Shown: positions 5,747 through 35,173 of the stretch, in pieces
Position numbering within the stretch: the stretch's first letter is position 1
How the letters are laid out: each line of letters starts with the position of its first letter
Assembly (NCBI RefSeq): GCF_000473895.1
Contig: NZ_ASSJ01000070.1
Location: 1-64,000 of the forward strand
From: Rubidibacter lacunae KORDI 51-2
Lineage (GTDB): Bacteria > Cyanobacteriota > Cyanobacteriia > Cyanobacteriales > Rubidibacteraceae
DNA length: 64,000 nucleotides
Reading direction: 5' to 3'
Position numbers and translations under genes: made by a program
Notes under the pieces: generated by a model
Told to the model about the DNA's origin: nothing
Database searches by the model: none
Seen by the model: the letters and a program-made list of their open reading frames with translations, nothing else

Positions 5747-8323
5747 TCACGAACCTACGACGATCTTCCAGAATGAAACGCCCAGCAAGAGTGTTACGAG
5801 GTGCTGCGGCCACAACAGGCTTAGCGGCTGACGGGCAATGGTTTGCGTCAAGGCGATCGCCAATACGACACCGGTAATTAGTGTCATTCCTTGTAGAAAG
5901 GCAATGACAGCAGGGTCAGCGGCAACGGCAAATTGACTGCCGCCGCCCAGTCCAACTGTTGCGAAGGCAACTGGCACCAACTGACCGCCTTCGATCAGCC
6001 CCAATCGCAAGTAATGGGCTAAGTTTGCTGCAAGCACGAGCGGTAAGTAACCGTATGCCAGTTCCACAAAAGCCCGCGGTTTGGGATGGACTTTCTGAGG
6101 AGAGAGTTGCTGCGAGAGCCAAAGATTACCTCGCACGATCGCTTGCGCGATAAATGGAGCAAGTGCGGGCAACCCGAGTGCCGCTATAGAAGCAACTACA
6201 TGTACCCAAAAGCGATCCAGCTGCCAGCTGACATCCAACATTGCCTGCAATTCCGACAAGCGATGTAAAAATACCACATCTAGCAACAACAACATTAGGG
6301 CAACTTCGTACGCACGGGGTTGGTGTGTTGTCCATAGTTCCATGCCGGGCGGACGCAAATTGACCTCCACCGATCGGTGCGGGCAGGCTTTTAAACAGGT
6401 CATGCAAAGCACACAATCGCGGTTGTCTTGGAGTTGTGCCGGATGCGAGTACAGCGGGCAGCCGTTCGTTTCTTGACCTTCACCTTTGCGCGGACCCCCT
6501 TTGTAGCATTGGTAGGTCGTGCATTCTGCCGAACAGGTCCCTTGCTGAGCGCGCAGCTCGGTTATTGCCAGTTTGGCGAACATCCCATTCATTCCACCGA
6601 TCGGACAAAGATAACGACACCAGAAGCGCCGCTCGAATAACAGCGAGAAGATGGTTGCTCCAGCAGTGATCAGCAATAGCAAACATGCCGAAAGGTAAGC
6701 CGTGTCTTCGAGGTTCCACAGCTCTTCCCATAGCAGAATCAGAGCGAACAGACCGAACAAAAACCATCCCCCCCAGCGTTCGGCTGATTGACGCGGCCAG
6801 CGCTTGAGTTGGCGCGGGAACATCTGCAGCGATAGCTTTTGAGCGAGTTCGCCGTAGATTGCAAAGGGGCAAATCGCGCACCACAACCTGCCGACGAAGG
6901 GAAAGCCAATTAGCACCACCGGCCACCACCACGCCCAAAACAAATTCAGCCCGACATTTTCGGACCGCGTTTGCGGCCCTAGAAATAGGATAGCGACGGT
7001 CAGGGCGAAGGCCGGCGCGACGACCCAATAATTGAAGCGCTCGGGATACCAAATACTTTTCAGGAAGCGGCGGAAACTGGGATAGGTATCGAGTAGGTTC
7101 AACCGCAGCTGTTTTTTCTTACTCTGGGAGGGCCAGACAATTTCTTCGGTTAATTCTTCCCGACTATCTAGCTGGACGATCGCGCGGCGGATTAGGTTTT
7201 CCAACTCCGTCAAGTTATCGGGAAAATCGTAGGCTTGCAAGCGGCGGATGGCTTCGGGGGCAACGCGAGGTTTGGGTCGTCCTTTCCCGCGCCAGATCAG
7301 GTTGATGTAATAGTTGACTTGGTCGCTGAGGTCGGACTTGCGAACGCGCAGCGGCGGGACTTTGATCGAACGGTTCACCAACTTATCGAGCTGAGGAACG
7401 GCCCGCTCGGCAATGAGAATCGTGCGTGCCTGCGCTGGTTGCGGATCTCCAGGGAAATCGCCCGGTCGGGCAATGGGAGTGTAGGTTCCGGTTGCAAGCC
7501 AGCGAGCGATCGCTGGCATCAGGTCTTCATCTAAGTCCTGGATATTATTGAGCACGAGCGTGCCCGTTCCCAACGCGGCAATGATTCCAGGCTTGCCACC
7601 TACCCGCCCGAAGAGCTCCGCGCCACTCGTTTGGAGGGTTCCGCAGTCGAGTTTGACAATCGGCTCGCGGCGGCGGCTCGACCCAAAGTGAATCAATGCG
7701 GCGATGTTGTCTTTGCCGAGACCCGGTTCGCCGATAATACGCGTGGAGTCGCAACTCTCTGCAGTGTGATTGACTTGTTGGCGCAGGCGGACGGCATAGC
7801 GACTTTTGCCAATGATGCCCCGGCGCGCCTTCGTCACGAGATAGGGACGCAAGATGTAAGCGCGCTCTTGTTGGTCGCTCAGTTGCGAAGATAGCTGAGC
7901 GACTTCCTCGGCCAGCTGCTGCGTAAACACCTGTGAGATCGCGGCAAACTTGGCGTTCAGGGCCCGGAACTGCTCGGCGGATAGCAACCAAAGCTGACAA
8001 TCGCTTAAGGTCGAAACGGTTTCGCGGGATGGCTGATCGAGCAGCAATGCCTGGAAGTTCAGGAGCGCGCCAGGCAATAGATTCAAGCTCGGCGAAAGAT
8101 GCCTAGTTCGCGCGGGGCGCAGGCGATCGGGCGCATGAGTTTCGAGCCGTCCGGATTGCAACACGAATAGCCCGATTGGGAGCTCGCCAGCGGTGACAAG
8201 CGTCCGTCCGGCCGGCACCTTACGGGACTGGAGTAAGGGGGCGATCGCGGTCAGGACCTCCTGGGGTAAGATGCTCAGCGCCGTTCGCTCTTGCAACCAG
8301 GTGACGCAATCGGAGGAAATCAT
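5747..8323 (-). CDS. cNMP-binding / degenerate sigma-54-activator AAA+ / membrane polyferredoxin fusion
   Basis: This 858-residue protein has three parts. Residues about 15-135 form a cyclic-nucleotide-binding-like beta roll. Residues about 165-400 align with NtrC-type AAA+ modules: Walker A GEPGLGK (198-204), an ELFG block and a helical lid LTELENLIRRAI. However, the GAFTGA loop is missing and the Walker B acidic pair is NN (259-260). Residues about 425-858 are a NapH/NosR-like membrane domain with many hydrophobic segments. It carries CAICP (482-486), CRYLCP (569-574) and a ferredoxin motif with Cys637, 640, 643 and 647 followed by Pro. The protein probably senses or moves electrons at a membrane rather than activating sigma-54 promoters, since cyanobacteria have no sigma-54. 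The function is unproven. Confidence 0.75.
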   Translation of the reverse strand: MISSDCVTWLQERTALSILPQEVLTAIAPLLQSRKVPAGRTLVTAGELPIGLFVLQSGRLETHAPDRLRPARTRHLSPSLNLLPGALLNFQALLLDQPSRETVSTLSDCQLWLLSAEQFRALNAKFAAISQVFTQQLAEEVAQLSSQLSDQQERAYILRPYLVTKARRGIIGKSRYAVRLRQQVNHTAESCDSTRIIGEPGLGKDNIAALIHFGSSRRREPIVKLDCGTLQTSGAELFGRVGGKPGIIAALGTGTLVLNNIQDLDEDLMPAIARWLATGTYTPIARPGDFPGDPQPAQARTILIAERAVPQLDKLVNRSIKVPPLRVRKSDLSDQVNYYINLIWRGKGRPKPRVAPEAIRRLQAYDFPDNLTELENLIRRAIVQLDSREELTEEIVWPSQSKKKQLRLNLLDTYPSFRRFLKSIWYPERFNYWVVAPAFALTVAILFLGPQTRSENVGLNLFWAWWWPVVLIGFPFVGRLWCAICPFAIYGELAQKLSLQMFPRQLKRWPRQSAERWGGWFLFGLFALILLWEELWNLEDTAYLSACLLLLITAGATIFSLLFERRFWCRYLCPIGGMNGMFAKLAITELRAQQGTCSAECTTYQCYKGGPRKGEGQETNGCPLYSHPAQLQDNRDCVLCMTCLKACPHRSVEVNLRPPGMELWTTHQPRAYEVALMLLLLDVVFLHRLSELQAMLDVSWQLDRFWVHVVASIAALGLPALAPFIAQAIVRGNLWLSQQLSPQKVHPKPRAFVELAYGYLPLVLAANLAHYLRLGLIEGGQLVPVAFATVGLGGGSQFAVAADPAVIAFLQGMTLITGVVLAIALTQTIARQPLSLLWPQHLVTLLLGVSFWKIVVGS

Positions 8324-8643
8324 GGGTGAGGCGCGATCGCTGCGCGGAGTCCTGTGCCCTTATGGTAGTGCAGGGATCTCTGGGGTCCTTGCAAAGATAG
8401 CAATTTCGAGACCGGGTGCGAGTTTGCCCCGGGCACACGATTGTGCCGCTGCTTAAAGGGAACCCAAGCATTTCTTGCTTTGGCTTTCAGGGGGAAGTGC
8501 CGAGCGTCTGCCAGTACAAATGCATTCGTTGGTAGGCTCAGATAACTCGCATCGCTGACATGCTGCACGTCCGCCAAACTAAAGGGTCCGAGCGGCGATG
8601 ATAAAATCGCAAATGCCGTATTAGTAGTGTCGAGAGAGCCGGA
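8324..8643. other. Divergent promoter interval before pdhB
   Basis: The interval separates the polyferredoxin gene (minus) from pdhB (plus). TGATAAAAT at about 8598-8606 could be a -10 region for pdhB. No gene or strong hairpin is supported. Confidence 0.3.
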
Positions 8644-9627
8644 ATGGCGGAGACGATTTTTTTTAACGCCCTGCGCGAGGCAACTGATGAAGAAATGGCG
8701 CGCGACGAGACCGTTTTCGTCCTAGGCGAAGACGTCGGTCACTATGGCGGCTCGTACAAGGTCACGAAAGATCTTTACAAAAAATACGGCGAGCTACGCC
8801 TGCTCGACACGCCGATCGCCGAGAACAGTTTCATGGGAGTCGCCATTGGTGCTGCGATGACCGGCTTGCGGCCGGTTGTTGAGGGCATGAACATGGGATT
8901 CTTGCTACTCGCATTCAACCAAATCGCCAACAATGCCGGCATGTTGCGCTACACCTCCGGCGGCAACTTCAAAATCCCCATCGTGATCCGCGGTCCCGGT
9001 GGGGTCGGCCGCCAACTTGGTGCCGAGCATTCCCAGCGCCTGGAAGCCTATTTCCAAGCCGTGCCGGGCTTAAAAATCGTTGCCTGTTCGACGGCCTACA
9101 ACGCGAAAGGCTTGCTCAAAGCTGCCATTCGCGACGATAATCCCGTGTTGTTTTTCGAGCACGTCTTGCTCTATAACCTCAAAGAAAACCTGCCCGACGG
9201 CGAATACTGGCTGCCGCTTGATAAAGCCGAAGTTGTGCGCCCGGGACGCGATGTGACGATCCTGACCTACTCGCGGATGCGCCATCACGCGCTGCAGGCA
9301 CTCAAAGAAATGGATGCTGCGGGCATCGACCCCGAGATTATCGACTTGATTTCCCTCAAGCCGCTAGACATGGAAACGATCGCGCGTTCGGTGCGCAAAA
9401 CCCACCGCGTCATCATCGTCGAAGAGTGCATGAAAACCGGCGGCATCGGAGCCGAGCTGGCCGCCCGTATCAACGAGCAGCTCTTTGACGAGCTGGACGC
9501 GCCGGTCGTCCGCCTTTCCTCCCAAGACATCCCAACGCCCTACAACGGCATGCTCGAACGCCTGACGATCGTGCAGCCATCGCAAATTGCCGAAGCCGCC
9601 CAAAAAATGATGGCGCTCCAAGTCTAG
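8644..9627 (+). CDS. pdhB: Pyruvate dehydrogenase E1 component, beta subunit
   Basis: This 327-residue transketolase-type protein matches PdhB/AcoB along its length. It starts [21 protein letters not shown] and contains the EDVG block that contacts thiamine diphosphate, the [14 protein letters not shown] helix, the RGPGG loop and the C-terminal domain with EECMKTGG. Together with the alpha subunit (encoded elsewhere) it decarboxylates pyruvate and passes the acetyl group to E2, making acetyl-CoA in the cytosol. Cyanobacteria commonly keep pdhB apart from pdhA and next to secD-secF, as here: secD starts 121 bases downstream on the same strand. Confidence 0.95.
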
Positions 9628-27807: not shown

Positions 27808-28082
27808 TAACAATTACTGCTCATCGATCGCGTCTTGTTAGTTCCGAAACGTACCTGAGAATGTCGCTGAGCCACGACAGCAGCGCATTCTCTGCTCTCA
27901 AAGAAGTTCAACTTATACTTTCTGCGGCCTCTCCACCGTCAGTTCGAGATTACGCGAGATAGCTTTTCCTTACTGAAAACTCCTCGCGATGGGTAGCCAT
28001 CTACTTCTATAGAGAGAATTCAGAGCCATTGGTTGAGGTAGGTACATCGATGTGCTTACAAATGCGGCACATCGTCCGTCTC

Positions 28083-29050
28083 CTATCTTGTCCCTGAGAT
28101 TTTCAGCCGCTGGTCAATTTGCTTCACCGTTAAGCCCCGAACCGAAGGCTTACACCTCCCATTTTGCAGAAACTCAAAGTTAGGTAAGTGCAAACGGAGC
28201 TTGCTCAGGTAGCGTCGGTACACTGCATCTGATAATGGCGACTGTACTTGAATAATTCTGGGGTTGCTAGCACCTTCACTGCCAGAGCAGTTGCAGGGCC
28301 TGCTGCAGTCTCTAAGGCGTGCTCCAACTTTTACCAGATTCTCAATCAGGTGACACCGGACCAAGACCTCCAGTTGCTCCAGGGCCTGTGGCATTTAGGC
28401 AAACAGACTCCAAATCTCGTCGGGACAAACTCCCAGGCAGGTCACGGGCTTCGCCACCGATTGCTTGCTCAGCTAGGTGACCAAGTCACCGTTGTCCTCA
28501 AATCATGCACCAATCATGCACCTTAGAGCTGTCCCGGGTGCAGATATGCAATCACATATTTTTTTCAGCGTAGTGGTTGTTCGGGCAGCACCAACAAACG
28601 CACAGTCCCCACCCCAGGCTAGCTTGTGTCATTGTCGTGGTCGACTGGGGTGCTGGAAACAATTGACTATGAACAGCGGTGTTGAGTGTTGTCATAGACC
28701 GGGATTCATGTCAGTAGTGCTATGTAAACCTAAGCGTGCTGGGAGGCAACCTTGGCACTAACGCGCAGACAGTTGAGATCGAGCATCGGGCTCAGTTGAC
28801 TGGAGGGATTGAGTTGCAAGTGCTGGGCTGTGGCTCGCTGGTGAGGGTTAAGGTCTCGAGGATGCTTTTCACTTTTTTGGGGTAGCCCGCTTTTTTTGGT
28901 AGCTGCCGCGAAAAAACCTACTGGTGTAGGACCGTCTGCTGGTCTTCGGCGCGCACAGTCCGCTCGATCCCTTCGAGGGTCTGGATATGGACCACGAGGG
29001 TGTTCTGAGAAAGGATGACAGCGGTTGTGACGCGACATATACTTGCAGTT
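28083..29050 (-). pseudogene. Decayed ISKra4-like transposase
   Basis: Pieces of one transposase appear in order on the minus strand but in shifting frames with stops. They are LQTLEGIERTVR near 28980-28940, QLSPMLDLNCLRVSAK near 28800-28750, CLGVCPDEIWSLF then ALEQLEVLVRCHLIENLVKVGA near 28440-28320, and LTVKQIDQRLKISG near 28120-28090. From memory these match the order of conserved blocks in cyanobacterial ISKra4-family transposases (LSP..CCLRLSAN, the WYHLxENLxKVG block, ESTVKQIDxRxKISG). Nothing functional can be made. It marks the left edge of the low-G+C island. Confidence 0.55.
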
Positions 29051-29318
29051 GGGCGGGATCTGCAAGAGAAATGAGTTACGCCGAGCTTGAGGGCACATCA
29101 AACCCAATATTCCTCTCCATTAGTGACAGGAATCACTTGCGTCGAACTTGATTGCATGGTATCAATTAGATGGTTGTGAGAACTCAATAGGTTTATGTAA
29201 ACTAGGCCAGCTGTTGAAAATATTCTTTCGTCCTGCATGGATACTTTCATAGCGAGTAGATAGCATAAATTCAGAGATCTCATACTGTAAAAGTTTACTA
29301 AGCAATTAAGGAGAGATA
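29051..29318 (+). promoter_or_regulatory. Upstream region of the lasso precursor
   Basis: This A+T-rich stretch leads to the precursor gene and must hold its promoter. Several A+T-rich hexamers are possible -10 boxes (for example in TAGCATAAAT near 29262), but none has a convincing -35 partner. A 77-codon minus-strand frame crosses it and I do not consider it real. Confidence 0.35.
29310..29315 (+). promoter_or_regulatory. Ribosome-binding site of the lasso precursor
   Basis: GGAGAG (preceded by AA) stands three to four bases before the ATG at 29319. It is one of the clearest Shine-Dalgarno sequences in the island and supports translation of a gene too short for routine calling. Confidence 0.6.
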
Positions 29319-29462
29319 ATGCAGACTTCAATTGATTCGAAGAAACAGTATCAGGAGCCGCGCATCGTTTGCGTAGGTGATGCAGTCAAAATGACTCTTA
29401 GTTTTGGTCAGTCTCTCATTAGAGACGCTAGATGGCGTTTTCCAATTGACCCCTCCGCATAG
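29319..29462 (+). CDS. Lasso peptide precursor (A)
   Basis: A 47-residue precursor. The leader (1-27) holds the lasso recognition motif YxxPxLxxxGxxxxxT with Tyr11, Pro14, Ile16, Gly20 and Thr26, so Thr26 takes the conserved -2 position. The core (28-47) is SFGQSLIRD followed by ARWRFPIDPSA. Ser at core position 1 and Asp at position 9 predict a nine-residue macrolactam ring; no other acid lies at positions 7-9. The bulky Trp12, Arg13 and Phe14 could lock the threaded tail. The core has no Cys, so a class II lasso is expected. Maturation proteins B1, B2 and C and exporter D lie downstream on the same strand. Confidence 0.88.
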   Translation: MQTSIDSKKQYQEPRIVCVGDAVKMTLSFGQSLIRDARWRFPIDPSA

Positions 29463-29480
29463 CCTCTTCATAGGCTAATT

Positions 29481-29531
29481 TTAGCTGCTAGCATCCCCTC
29501 AAGACTTCAGCGGGGGGATGTTAGTAGTTAA
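29481..29531 (+). promoter_or_regulatory. 18-bp RNA hairpin after the lasso precursor
   Basis: Arms 29481-29498 and 29514-29531 pair over 18 bases with a 15-base loop. Fifteen pairs are Watson-Crick, and the other three are G-U if the plus strand is transcribed; on the minus strand they would be A-C mismatches. No T run follows, so it is not a classic terminator. It begins 19 bases after the precursor stop and could stabilise the precursor mRNA or reduce read-through to the enzyme genes. A weaker 5-bp hairpin (29461-29476) overlaps the stop codon. Confidence 0.7.
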
Positions 29532-30359
29532 TATTCATTCATTGCTGTGCTTGTAGATTCAGTAATGTGATTCTCAAAATGTTTTAGCTTTCATACACAG
29601 CCAAAACCAATTCTACTTTTGAGCGGATGCATCGACGGATATGTTCTTGAAACTCCATAGGAAGATCTTTTTTTGATTTTCAAGCACTTCGACCTCCCTG
29701 TGCATTTTGCATTTCTAGCCTTAGTGTTCCTGGGGCATTAAAGTATTGCTAATCGCGACCGCTTCTGAGATGAAACAATAGTTTCATGCAAAATTGCTCC
29801 TTCTCAATTGCGCCTACACTACGTTGCTATTTTCAAATTTACCCGTAATTTTCGCTAAATTTGCGAGAGCAATAGCCTAAATAAGTAAACGTAGATTGTT
29901 TTGGAATTATCTCATCTGGCACGATGGCATCTGCAGCTGCAATCTGGTTCATTCAAAAGTATTAGGAATCACCGATAAGGACCTCCATGTAAATCCTGCG
30001 ACAATATAGCTTACGGTTCTCGTGTTGAGAAATTATTCCACGGCAACAAGTTTTAGGTTTATTAACTAGTTAGAACTTGCTAGTAATCGGCAGGAATTCT
30101 CGAGAATCTGCAAGATTGCGGCATGAGAGTTGAAATTAAGAAACTGCAATTAACTAACTTAAATAAATTGATAGTCAGTATTGAAGATAAGGTTTTTCCA
30201 CTTTGAAGGGATTAAGTTGCAAGAAAACTGAAGAACTTCTAGTCTATAGACTTACATATGAAATCAGTTGTACAAGATTCAAAAAATTGAAAATCCAAAA
30301 ATAACATTCTCTAGTGCACCTAGTATTTAGAATAAGCTTTAAAAATCTTGAGGGGAGAT
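29532..30359. other. Gene-free A+T-rich spacer inside the lasso cluster
   Basis: I read all plus-strand ATG frames here; the longest has 27 codons and no Shine-Dalgarno or lasso leader motif. There is no second precursor. The spacer could hold a separate promoter for the enzyme operon or be the remains of lost sequence. Confidence 0.5.
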
Positions 30360-32219
30360 ATGAAACGTTGGTTCTGTGGCTCAGTAAAAGGAAATGAAGA
30401 AAATAACAATTTAGAATTACTTGAACCTCTTAAAGGCAAAAGTATTTGGACGGGTTTAAGTTCGTTTTGGCTTTGCGGAAGCTGGCAAGAGCAACAATAT
30501 ATTAGTCTTACGGAAGGGTCTGTAAAAGTAGTATTTGTTGGAACCTGTCTATCATCCCGTGAGAACCTTGTCAGGAAGTTAAAAGCTGCTAAACAGTTGA
30601 GAAATTATAGCTTATTAATGCAGTTACCGGGTAACTATAATTTGATCGTTCAATCAGGTGAAGATACTTACATTTTCGTTGATGCTATGGGAGTCCGGCT
30701 AATATTCTATGCCTCTTGGAATTCTTCGATTATCTATTCCTCTATTTCGCTTTCATTGCAAAAACTAATCAAGGCGGAAGTCGATCTTCAATGGTTAGCC
30801 ACTTCTCTAGCTGGAATATCTACTTTGAGCTTGTCTAAAATTCGCTCTCCGTTTAAGAATATTAAATTAATTCCTCCAGGTAATTATTTACACATAACTC
30901 CCACAAATTCGAAACTAAAAAAATATTGGGTTACCATTTCCGGCTACAAACCATTTGCAGAATCTGCAAATGCACTTCAAGAATGCTTATTGAAGTCAGT
31001 AGAGGGAAGAGCAAGTCTCTATGGCAATGCAAGTAGCGATTTAAGCGGTGGGTTTGACTCAACAACCATAGCTATGATTGCTGCTAAGATGCTAAACAAA
31101 AAAGGCAAAAAATTCTATACAGTTACTGAGAAGACACATAGTGCCATTCGATCATCAGATATAAGATATGCTGAAGACGCAGCTAATCTTTATCCTAATA
31201 TAGAAGCATTGATGCTTTGCAAGGAAAATATTCCACTTGAATATGGCTCATTGAATTTAATTCCATTTACAGATTTCCCAAATCCTGCTCTTGCATATTG
31301 TATGGGCGGGCTAGATTATGTAATGAAGGCAATCAGGTCAATCAATTCTCAAGTACATATGAGTGGGGAGGGAGGCGATGCAGTGCTAATGAGTGTGGGA
31401 TATAGTTATCTCATCGATCTTATGAGAAAAGCTAGCTTTTCCCGATTCTTCCTACATCTTGCTGGTTGGTGTCGGGTTCACAGCCTATCATTACTAGGGT
31501 TATTATCTCTTGTTGTGAAACGAAGCATTCTTTCTTATCCTAATTGGTTGCAGAAAGTGAAAAGGCTTGAGTTCAGTGACCTGAAATTGAATCAAAGGTC
31601 AAAGAGTTTTCGCATGGCATGGGATATACTTCCTACAATTGCGAGTTGGCATTCAGATCAGTTGGGAGAGCAAGTTATTGCTGAGCTCCAAGATTTGACA
31701 GAAATTGCAGTCCCTTTTTCAGGATCTATGGGAGAGCATTTAACAATTTCATTGATCCAGCTAAATGCTATTTCAGCTCGTACTATTCAACAGGTAGCCG
31801 ATTTGTATGATGTAAATTTGGAATATCCTTATTTCGATCGATTAGTAGTTGAGGCGTGTCTATCAGCCAGACCATACGAGCGAACAAGTCCTATTTCATA
31901 CAAACCCCTTCTGGTCGAAGCTTTCAAAGATATACTTCCTCCCAGTATATATGTAAGAAATACTAAAGGGGAGTATGTCGCCGATGAATTTATTGGATTC
32001 AAGGCTAATCTTAATGGTATTAATTCATCCCTCGAAAATTCACAGCTTGTCAGGTTGGGATTAGTGGATGCAAGCAAATTACGAGCAGCGATGCAAAATT
32101 TTGTCATGGGTCTAGGCGATGAACTAGCACTTTTTAGTCCAACGCTAGCGACGGAGGCCTGGCTTAGGTGCTTAAATGAATCTCGGCACGAATTCTGGAA
32201 TTTCAGGAATTCACGGTAA
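30360..32219 (+). CDS. Lasso peptide macrolactam synthetase (C, asparagine-synthetase-like)
   Basis: This 619-residue homologue of McjC-type lasso cyclases adenylates the ring-forming acid side chain and joins it to the core N-terminus. Residues 1-150 are a degenerate glutaminase-like domain without the N-terminal catalytic Cys (it starts MKRWFCGS). The PP-loop ATP site is LSGGFDSTT, with SGGFDS at 229-234. A second asparagine-synthetase block is GEGGDAVLM, and later conserved helices end YPYFDRLVVEA. A TTG at 30348 is in frame, but the ATG at 30360 directly follows AGGGGAG. It should act in the cytosol on the leaderless core. The B1 gene begins 25 bases after its stop. Confidence 0.88.
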   Translation: MKRWFCGSVKGNEENNNLELLEPLKGKSIWTGLSSFWLCGSWQEQQYISLTEGSVKVVFVGTCLSSRENLVRKLKAAKQLRNYSLLMQLPGNYNLIVQSGEDTYIFVDAMGVRLIFYASWNSSIIYSSISLSLQKLIKAEVDLQWLATSLAGISTLSLSKIRSPFKNIKLIPPGNYLHITPTNSKLKKYWVTISGYKPFAESANALQECLLKSVEGRASLYGNASSDLSGGFDSTTIAMIAAKMLNKKGKKFYTVTEKTHSAIRSSDIRYAEDAANLYPNIEALMLCKENIPLEYGSLNLIPFTDFPNPALAYCMGGLDYVMKAIRSINSQVHMSGEGGDAVLMSVGYSYLIDLMRKASFSRFFLHLAGWCRVHSLSLLGLLSLVVKRSILSYPNWLQKVKRLEFSDLKLNQRSKSFRMAWDILPTIASWHSDQLGEQVIAELQDLTEIAVPFSGSMGEHLTISLIQLNAISARTIQQVADLYDVNLEYPYFDRLVVEACLSARPYERTSPISYKPLLVEAFKDILPPSIYVRNTKGEYVADEFIGFKANLNGINSSLENSQLVRLGLVDASKLRAAMQNFVMGLGDELALFSPTLATEAWLRCLNESRHEFWNFRNSR

Positions 32220-32244
32220 TTTGTAATCTAAAGGGATTAAAACA

Positions 32245-32508
32245 ATGAATGATACTCGTATTCCGTCATATGTTTCTACAACATATTTTCAAGATAGTGC
32301 TATTATCTTAGATAGTAGGAAGAATACATATTATACTTTAAATGATAGTGCTGCAACATTTTGGAAACTGCTAATAGAATTAAATTCTATAGTGGAAGCT
32401 ATTGAACAAGTCAAGAATTTATACGATCTTCCAAGTGACACTTTAGTCCAAGACATGAAACTTTTTGCCACAACTTTAGAAGATCTAGGTTTGATTAAAA
32501 GAGTTTAA
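32245..32508 (+). CDS. Lasso peptide leader-binding protein (B1, PqqD-like)
   Basis: The 87-residue protein has the winged-helix PqqD fold known as a RiPP recognition element. A short beta hairpin (IILDSRKNTYYTLNDSA) is followed by helices (ATFWKLLIELNSIVEAIEQV...) and the terminal LEDLGLIKRV. In lasso systems with split B proteins, B1 binds the leader's YxxPxLxxxG segment and hands the precursor to the B2 protease. It follows C after 25 bases and precedes B2 by 75 bases, consistent with one transcript. Confidence 0.88.
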   Translation: MNDTRIPSYVSTTYFQDSAIILDSRKNTYYTLNDSAATFWKLLIELNSIVEAIEQVKNLYDLPSDTLVQDMKLFATTLEDLGLIKRV

Positions 32509-32583
32509 TCGATTTCTGAAAATGACAAATTTTTTTTTGGTTTCACTACCTCATTGCAAAAATTCTAATAGGAATATCGGAAT

Positions 32584-33003
32584 ATGGATACTGATATGTC
32601 GGTAGAATTGATAAATTTATCTCTGAAACCTAGAGAATACTTAAAGGGACTTACAACTATTGTTATTGCTTACTTGGCGGTAAACCTCCTAAGTCTAGAA
32701 AGAATTGGTGCACTTCTCAGGAAATTCAAGCGATCATCTTGTCAAGAACTAAACACATGTGAAGCGGAAATTATTTGGGCTGCTATACACAAGTCGAGCT
32801 TATATTTTCCAGGGAGAGTTGCTTGCCTAGAACTCTCATTGGCTTTTACCATATATGCTTTGATTTCGAAACGCTCCTCAATTTGGTGTGTTGGTGTAGC
32901 AGTCGATCCGATACGTGCCCACGCGTGGGTAGAAGTTGAGCAAAAACCTTTTCATGAAAAGAACGATCTTTATCTGTATTTTAAAAAAATACTAGTCGTT
33001 TAA
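32584..33003 (+). CDS. Lasso peptide leader protease (B2, transglutaminase-like)
   Basis: This 139-residue cysteine protease of the lasso B2 family removes the leader after the Thr(-2)-X position. The catalytic Cys81 is in RVACLELSLA and His113 in RAHAWVEV; an Asp near 127 may complete the triad. The length is normal for a stand-alone B2. The ATG at 32584 and an in-frame ATG at 32596 are both possible starts. It needs B1 for leader recognition and is encoded directly after it. Confidence 0.87.
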   Translation: MDTDMSVELINLSLKPREYLKGLTTIVIAYLAVNLLSLERIGALLRKFKRSSCQELNTCEAEIIWAAIHKSSLYFPGRVACLELSLAFTIYALISKRSSIWCVGVAVDPIRAHAWVEVEQKPFHEKNDLYLYFKKILVV

Positions 33004-33047
33004 ACTTTTGGACATTGAAGCTTAGAATTTAGATTCAAGTGCTAATA

Positions 33048-34865
33048 ATGAAGTTAAAATTTTTCTTTATCAAAACTTATAATTATGTAAGAGATGTTAG
33101 TAGGTCTTTGACACTTCTGTGGAATGCAGCATTTTGTGAAAGCCTTTTTCTTGCTGTCCTTAGTATTTTGCAAGGAATATTTCCGGCAATTAGTATATCA
33201 ATTAGTAAGCTTGTCGTTGATGAAGTGGTTCTTAATCTAACGACTGATGTTCAGCCAAAACTTTCAATAATCATAATTCTGGTCACGAGTTGGATCGGGG
33301 TTCTAATGCTTTCACTCCTTCTTAATCCTTGGACAAAGGCTCTTCAAGGTAATTTAAATGATAAACTAACGGCGCATCTAAGCTTACTCTTAATGGAGAA
33401 AGTTAACAGTTTTCCAGATCTAAGTTGTTTTGAAGATTCAAGATTCTATGATGAGCTCCAGATACTTCAGAAACAGTTAAATTATCAGCCATTTAACCTA
33501 TTAAATTCTATTGTTGTAGGGGGACGTTCTTGTATTACATTATTAACAATGTTAATTCTGCTTTTACCTCTTGGGTATTGGATCCCAATAATATTAACAA
33601 TTGCTATTTTCCCTCAAATATTGGTATCCATGCAGTATGAGACACAAATATGGTCTGCTTTTTTTGACAAGGGCTATCAATCTCGCCGCATGTCTTACAT
33701 TACATCAGTTCTTTTTTCTGATACATTTGCAAAGGAGATAAGGCTTTTCAACCTAGGGAATTTTTTTGTAAGTCAATATTTAACAGCATTTCAAGTTTTA
33801 CACAGATCGATACGCCGCCTACGTATTCGGCAGGCACTTTGGGTATCTGGGCTAGCCCTATTAAGTACAATTGGCAATGGTGCTGCATTTTACTGGATCG
33901 TAAGGAAAGCTTTTAGAGGTCAGATTAGCCCAGGTAGCATTCTTCTTTTTCTAGAAGCATTGACAAATCTGCGATGGAGTCTTGAAGAATTTTTTGGAAT
34001 GTGGCTAAACTTGCATGAAACGATGCTTTATATGCAACAGCTATTTTCTTTTCTGGATAGTGAACCTAATATGAGACTTTCTTTCCCTGGGGAATTGGTA
34101 AAAAAACCATTACGCTCAGGAATAGATTTTAGAAATGTAAGTTTTTTTTACCCAGATAACCGTTTAGCTTTACTCAATATTACTTTCACGATTTTACCAG
34201 GTGAAACTATTGCGATTGTTGGGGAAAACGGTGCGGGAAAGACAACTCTAATAAAGTTGCTATTAAGGATGTACGATCCCGTACGGGGAGAAATATTAGT
34301 TGATGACATCAATATTAAAGAGCTAAATCTTGACGATTGGAGAAGGCAGGTTTCTGGTGTTTTTCAAGACTTTGGTCGTTATTATCTTACTTTAAGTGAA
34401 AATATTGCCCTTGGAGATCCGAGAGTCGCTGAGAATCACGAGGAACTAAGAATTGCGATTCGAAAAATAGGAATCCATCCTTTGGTTGAGCGACTTCCTG
34501 AAAAGGAGCACACTCCTTTGGGTAAGCAGTTTGGCGGCACTGAGCTTTCCGGTGGAGAATGGCAAAAGCTGGCTATAGCCAGAGCCATTGTCCGTAGAAA
34601 TGCCCAGATACTTATCCTTGATGAACCTACTGCTGCGCTCGATCCTCGAAGTGAATATGAAACTTACCAGCATTTCACTGAGTTAGCTCGTGGAAAAACC
34701 ACTATCCTAGTGACTCATCGTCTTGCTTCTGTAAAATTGGCGGATCGTATTCTGGTTATGAAAAAAGGACACCTGGTTGAGGTCGGAACTCACGAGGAGT
34801 TGATAGATAGAGATGGTGAATATGCTAGTTTATGGAATATGCAAGCTAATCAATATAAAGCATGA
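33048..34865 (+). CDS. Lasso peptide ABC exporter (D)
   Basis: This half-transporter of about 605 residues has an N-terminal domain of six membrane segments (first about residues 28-55, last near 280-310). The C-terminal ATPase has Walker A GENGAGKTTL (about 391-400), the Q-loop region GVFQDFGRYYL, the signature LSGGEWQKLAIARAI, Walker B ILILDEPTAALDP and the switch His in LVTHRLAS. It should dimerise and export the finished lasso peptide, giving self-protection, like McjD. A GTG at 33039 is in frame; I prefer the ATG at 33048, though no clear Shine-Dalgarno precedes either. It is the last gene of the cluster. Confidence 0.88.
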   Translation: MKLKFFFIKTYNYVRDVSRSLTLLWNAAFCESLFLAVLSILQGIFPAISISISKLVVDEVVLNLTTDVQPKLSIIIILVTSWIGVLMLSLLLNPWTKALQGNLNDKLTAHLSLLLMEKVNSFPDLSCFEDSRFYDELQILQKQLNYQPFNLLNSIVVGGRSCITLLTMLILLLPLGYWIPIILTIAIFPQILVSMQYETQIWSAFFDKGYQSRRMSYITSVLFSDTFAKEIRLFNLGNFFVSQYLTAFQVLHRSIRRLRIRQALWVSGLALLSTIGNGAAFYWIVRKAFRGQISPGSILLFLEALTNLRWSLEEFFGMWLNLHETMLYMQQLFSFLDSEPNMRLSFPGELVKKPLRSGIDFRNVSFFYPDNRLALLNITFTILPGETIAIVGENGAGKTTLIKLLLRMYDPVRGEILVDDINIKELNLDDWRRQVSGVFQDFGRYYLTLSENIALGDPRVAENHEELRIAIRKIGIHPLVERLPEKEHTPLGKQFGGTELSGGEWQKLAIARAIVRRNAQILILDEPTAALDPRSEYETYQHFTELARGKTTILVTHRLASVKLADRILVMKKGHLVEVGTHEELIDRDGEYASLWNMQANQYKA

Positions 34866-35173
34866 CCTTTGCTCATTATTTACCACTATGTAGCTCGCCT
34901 AAGCAAACGAAATTGGTACTCTCACAATTCCTTTTATGCCTTTCTCGACATTAATTTTACGACGTGGGAGATATTGAGACCCATTTTGGGATTGGCTTTG
35001 AAGGATCGCAATTAGTTGCTTTTTCTCAATAGCTGCCATTTTGCGCAATTTGGGACGTATTATCACCTAAAAGCCTGCTGCTACTTAACTATTTTTAACT
35101 TGAGATTCGATCCCCTATTTGCAAGTGATATAACAGTTGGGTGCATCGAAGTCGTGTCTAACGGAGGTTTGCG
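34866..35173. other. Right flank of the island
   Basis: These 308 bases lie between the exporter stop and the convergent cobT-like gene. Composition changes here from A+T-rich to host-like. I saw no gene, tRNA, integrase remnant or terminal repeat that would define an insertion boundary. Confidence 0.4.

Follow-up and report, generated by a model that had tools for sequence, protein, structure and literature searches.

Gene A, a small open reading frame in the 64,000-nucleotide stretch of Rubidibacter lacunae KORDI 51-2 DNA analysed here (the window), is, as judged from its sequence, a genuine lasso peptide precursor gene whose predicted product belongs to a known class (Table 1). Together with four genes located 3' of it, all on the same strand and in the order C-B1-B2-D, it very probably forms a complete five-gene lasso peptide cluster of a cyanobacterium, for which a Ser1-Asp9 product is proposed. 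The initial annotation had predicted a lasso precursor with such a ring, and this is supported as the best reading because the lasso enzymes adjoin gene A and the cores of related precursors agree with that of the window. The neighbouring genes decide the case and are stronger evidence than the leader motif alone.

Translation of gene A yields MQTSIDSKKQYQEPRIVCVGDAVKMTLSFGQSLIRDARWRFPIDPSA, followed by a stop codon, which bears out the precursor of 47 codons claimed at this position. Within the leader, Tyr11, Pro14, Ile16 and Gly20 are found in register, and the C-terminal end is formed by Thr26-Leu27. The motif YxxPxLxxxGxxxxxT had been described as matching exactly; all residues named at the time are in place, but the match is not exact, with Ile occupying the Leu position of the motif. 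The core, SFGQSLIRDARWRFPIDPSA, contains Asp9 and Asp17 as its only acids, and Asp9 is the sole acid within positions 7-9. The earlier designation of Asp9 as the only possible ring acid thus stands, since Asp17 lies outside this range. Recalculated masses are 2318.192 Da for the linear core and 2300.181 Da after loss of water, with [M+2H]2+ at 1151.098, in agreement with the 2300.18 Da and 1151.10 given previously for the cyclised peptide. An exact and testable mass, in combination with a predicted ring, is thereby provided for an uncharacterised predicted peptide of a type strain.

Gene A is reported neither by the lasso leader models nor by the lasso precursor models of NCBIfam, even at E-values up to 10, and it is therefore plausible that the gene was overlooked by annotation. 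The sole precursor match, to the NCBIfam model 'amanitin' (12 bits versus a cut-off of 35, E 0.17), was taken as chance, as were the T-cell receptor chains (E at least 1) which alone were returned by a search of the PDB with the precursor.

Table 1. Positions of the predicted lasso peptide cluster and of associated elements within the window.
Feature	Position	Strand	Basis
Likely ribosome-binding site of gene A, AGGAGAG	29309..29315	+	read directly, just 5' of the ATG
Precursor gene A, 47 codons plus stop	29319..29462	+	translation; relatives
Leader peptide, 27 residues, YxxPx[L/I]xxxGxxxxxT-L	29319..29399	+	translation; comparison with relatives
Core peptide, predicted Ser1-Asp9 ring followed by an 11-residue tail	29400..29459	+	translation, mass and relatives; ring closure inferred
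20-pair hairpin between A and C	29481..29531	+	-31.7 kcal/mol, z -7.5, 0/200 shuffles as good
C, asparagine-synthetase-like lasso cyclase	30360..32219	+	NF033561 320.4 bits (cut-off 300), PF00733
B1, PqqD-like RiPP recognition element	32245..32508	+	PF05402 45.8 bits (cut-off 23.4)
B2, transglutaminase-like leader protease	32584..33003	+	NF033537 68.1 bits (cut-off 33), PF13471
D, ABC transporter, probably serving export and immunity	33039..34865	+	PF00005
Low-GC island carrying the cluster	29200..34950 (approximate limits)	.	GC 37.6% versus 57.4% in the rest of the window

On every gene-level feature tested, A-C-B1-B2-D presents itself as a lasso cluster, and the reading frames of all five genes are unbroken. 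C, B1 and B2 score above the cut-offs of the Pfam families given for them in Table 1. The model whose curated cut-off is passed by C, NF033561, is the NCBIfam albusnodin/ikarugamycin cyclase model, and all three aligned sequences of C retain the SGGxDS motif for nucleotide binding. For B1, the best solved chains are both lasso B1 proteins, TfuB1 (6jx3, E 0.0024) and TbiB1 (5v1u, E 0.0062), albeit with modest E-values, and B1 remains under the curated cut-offs of the NCBIfam lasso B1 models (38.9 versus 70). Of the three catalytic residues of B2, two could be assigned, the Cys and the His, and both are retained in all 11 aligned sequences; a PDB search with B2 gave matches at chance level only, and no further member of the B2 family was found elsewhere in the genome. 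D shares 62% identity with the D proteins of both Komarekiella clusters described below.

The spacing of about 900 bases between A and C, which holds no recognised gene, was counted against the reading as a complete cluster. Extra precursors with the leader motif were not found in this gap, nor was a second copy of the gap sequence found elsewhere in the genome. Just behind A, the gap contains a strong hairpin, a probable attenuator or RNA-stabilising element if judged by its fold, which was counted in favour of the cluster. Such a hairpin is not a general feature of the relatives, since the z-scores of the four folded at this position range from -3.1 in Microseira over -2.0 in Komarekiella delphini-convector and -1.3 in Tychonema to -0.1 in Komarekiella atlantica.

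When NF033561 was run against 386 genomes of the phylum, two exceeded the cut-off, one of them being that of the window. C as query gave matches at E-values no higher than 1e-20 in four of the 388 genomes covered for the order, counting that of the window, and no match at this level was obtained in the eight other genomes of the family searched. A first scan of genome contigs with a single cyclase found no relative; a scan using a three-row cyclase alignment revealed eight loci with C proteins 41-46% identical, situated in Komarekiella (two species), Microseira, Scytonematopsis (two loci), Scytonema, Nostoc and Tychonema. By tblastn, B1 and B2 were each detected in seven of these loci, but not in L058 of Scytonematopsis. 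A D-like match, partial in Tychonema, occurs in all but the Microseira locus L056, and one or more precursors built on the same plan are found in all but L059, which ends at a contig end. Four matches to a looser leader pattern (two in L056 and one each in L060 and L061) were dropped by eye because they had no Thr-Leu end or were implausible as precursors.

Some loci show peculiarities of their own. In Scytonematopsis contorta, L058 combines a cyclase (7001-8860) with a precursor carrying Glu9 (9290-9147) and a D-like transporter, and B1 and B2 were undetected within its 15.9 kb. The same MAG contains two more cyclases in L057, so that the B proteins may be shared between both loci. A second, interrupted cyclase of Microseira wollei lies beside a precursor-like ORF without a Met before the motif (L052, G438:C303, 2096-4202), possibly a decaying cluster; this precursor was nevertheless retained in the counts given below. 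Several tandem precursors, one of them partly masked, were seen at L041 (5767-7840) and belong to a different lasso-like family of cyanobacteria.

The precursor set comprises 12 ORFs with 10 distinct cores from seven genomes, including the window and the further Microseira locus. The start of each core was fixed by the Thr-[LIVM] end of the leader and hence independently of the position of any acid. This end is Thr-Leu throughout the 12 ORFs, Thr filling position -2 and Leu position -1. All 10 distinct cores have an Asp or Glu at position 8 or 9, compared with a mean of 1.34 and a maximum of 6 among shuffled cores, 10 being reached in 0 of 20,000 trials; this test overstates independence, because the cores are interrelated and the two Komarekiella cores are near-copies. 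Predicted ring sizes of eight and nine residues both occur, one core has Glu9, and Arg immediately precedes the ring acid in nine of the 10 cores. Position 1 is Gly in six cores; each of the remaining four has a different residue there, namely Ser, Ala, Leu or Trp. Since this position varies among the relatives, Ser1 of the predicted window core is not anomalous. Small as it is, this comparative set exposes the fixed residues of a cyanobacterial group.

Counting the side chains of Arg, Lys, Asp and Glu, the cores of the window, Tychonema and one of Microseira have a net charge of +1, and values from +3 to +8 are found for the remaining cores. Within its family, the window core departs most from the common pattern, having few basic residues and an additional PIDPSA end, a deviation counted against the preferred reading. 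Tentatively, and with somewhat more doubt than conviction, the window may be assigned to an undescribed clade of mostly basic lasso peptides, which would have moved horizontally among cyanobacteria and possess cyclases tolerating different first residues as well as Asp8, Asp9 or Glu9. If true, these cyclases would be unusually permissive for both the first residue and the ring acid, and the Trp and Leu found at position 1 would be suited to probe this permissiveness. In Komarekiella, the cores of L054 (2979-3188) and L055 (507-722) are odd for a lasso peptide: they combine a predicted ring of eight residues and a run of Arg with a lengthy repeat tail rich in Gly and His.

The island carrying the cluster differs from its surroundings also in third-position GC, which amounts to 19-32% in C, B1, B2 and D versus 62-68% in three neighbouring genes. 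The GC content of the relatives' clusters is 35-43% (six measured). Low GC, in combination with the lack of a C match at 1e-20 in the eight other family genomes, makes it likely that the cluster was acquired horizontally from a cyanobacterium of lower GC. A cyclase tree places the window with Tychonema and Komarekiella; since support is weak (82/90, drawn open) and the outgroup branches are long, no donor is named. Adjoining the island, positions 27850-29318 are degenerate and resemble five further sites of this genome at 68-74% identity; they may be what is left of a mobile element. A transposase was considered for 28083-29107, where five frames scanned gave no Pfam match.

In the proposed pathway, gene identities and the plan of the precursor come from the sequence, and cleavage, cyclisation, threading and export are adopted from established lasso biosynthesis. 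B1 would bind the leader via the YxxPx[L/I] segment and present it to B2, which would cleave behind Thr26-Leu27; this order of action follows established work on B1 and B2 (PMC5067487) and is transferred here to the window cluster. Using ATP, C would then activate the side chain of Asp9 for bond formation with the amino group of Ser1. The resulting nine-residue ring is expected to enclose the tail, with Trp12, Arg13 or Phe14 as likely plugs, guessed from their size, and D would export the product. Many lasso peptides act in antagonism of neighbouring bacteria. The same role is the most likely one for the predicted product, although it is the least supported step of the pathway.

Four other explanations were weighed against this pathway. 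The silence of the NCBIfam lasso precursor models could be taken to mean that gene A is a chance frame, with the true precursor at another place. However, with Ile, Leu, Val and Met allowed, all six frames of the window together hold a single occurrence of the leader motif, whereas first-order Markov versions of the window (n = 100) averaged 0.06 matches, and in not one did the motif fall inside a short ORF with a preceding Met. The chance ORF was rejected on this comparison, and since leader and core acid are also concordant with the relatives, such an explanation is largely refuted already and can hardly be correct. Ser1 is uncommon among known lasso peptides, and this rarity would fit a lasso precursor which is cleaved at another bond and forms a ring other than Ser1-Asp9. 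The invariant Thr-Leu end of the 12 ORFs and the acid always found at position 8 or 9 speak against a different cleavage site, rendering it highly improbable.

A branched cyclic peptide, in which the Ser1-Asp9 macrolactam is closed but the tail unthreaded, would have a mass identical to that of the lasso, and topology is beyond what a sequence can reveal. Nevertheless, C and B2 belong to lasso families, the characterised members of which are known to thread, and the tail offers bulky residues fit for plugging; the unthreaded form is accordingly considered quite improbable. A silent or decaying island of horizontal origin, from which the peptide is no longer made, is an unlikely explanation as well: the GC contrast to the surrounding DNA, the absence of C matches at 1e-20 from the eight other family genomes and the degenerate repeats upstream are all compatible with it. 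Uninterrupted A, C, B1, B2 and D genes and the retained active-site motifs, on the other hand, argue for an intact cluster, and production and export of a threaded Ser1-Asp9 lasso peptide by a functional A-C-B1-B2-D cluster is the preferred reading.

Lasso peptides of cyanobacteria are already on record, as stated in a 2021 paper (PMC8600333), which cites Tietz 2017. In the literature searched, no paper was recognised as describing the window cluster or its relatives, and mature lasso peptides from cyanobacteria appear to be little studied there. A Bacillus paper (PMC11676374) mentions both 'lasso peptide' and 'Tychonema'. NCBIfam holds models with names indicating cyanobacterial lasso peptides, namely lasso_cyano (NF033528) for precursors and lass_lactam_cya (NF033535) for the cyclase. 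Window C scores 80.5 bits against NF033535, far from the cut-off of 525, and a scan of seven cyanobacterial relatives gave a single match to NF033528, that of the Nostoc precursor at 14.8 bits (cut-off 33).

Albusnodin is a lasso peptide of Streptomyces albus. Likeness to its family is seen in the cyclase, with window C scoring above the NF033561 cut-off, and several precursors of the cyanobacterial relatives weakly match the albusnodin precursor model NF033525 (15-20 bits, cut-off 30), whereas the window precursor shows no match to it at E-values up to 10. The nearest plasmid-borne actinobacterial cyclases are at most 28% identical to window C. According to PMC9266682, albusnodin carries an acetylated Lys10 and requires an acetyltransferase for its production; in contrast, residue 10 of the window core is Ala, and no acetyltransferase gene was found among the window cluster and the neighbours scanned. 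Membership in the albusnodin family was rejected on this basis, the cyclase matching and the precursor model and acetyltransferase not.

For the lariocidin/triculamin (lrc) peptides, PMC11451635 reports that the ring Asp and positive charges are conserved in relatives, and that the clusters encode a two-part transporter, a GNAT and a clostripain-like peptidase. Unlike in lrc, scanning of the window cluster and its neighbours revealed neither a GNAT nor a clostripain-like peptidase. With regard to the ring, the predicted window core resembles streptomonomicin, which likewise has a Ser1-Asp9 ring. PMC6784204 describes streptomonomicin as a class II lasso peptide of 21 residues, which differs from the window peptide in being actinobacterial and in having about half of its residues hydrophobic.
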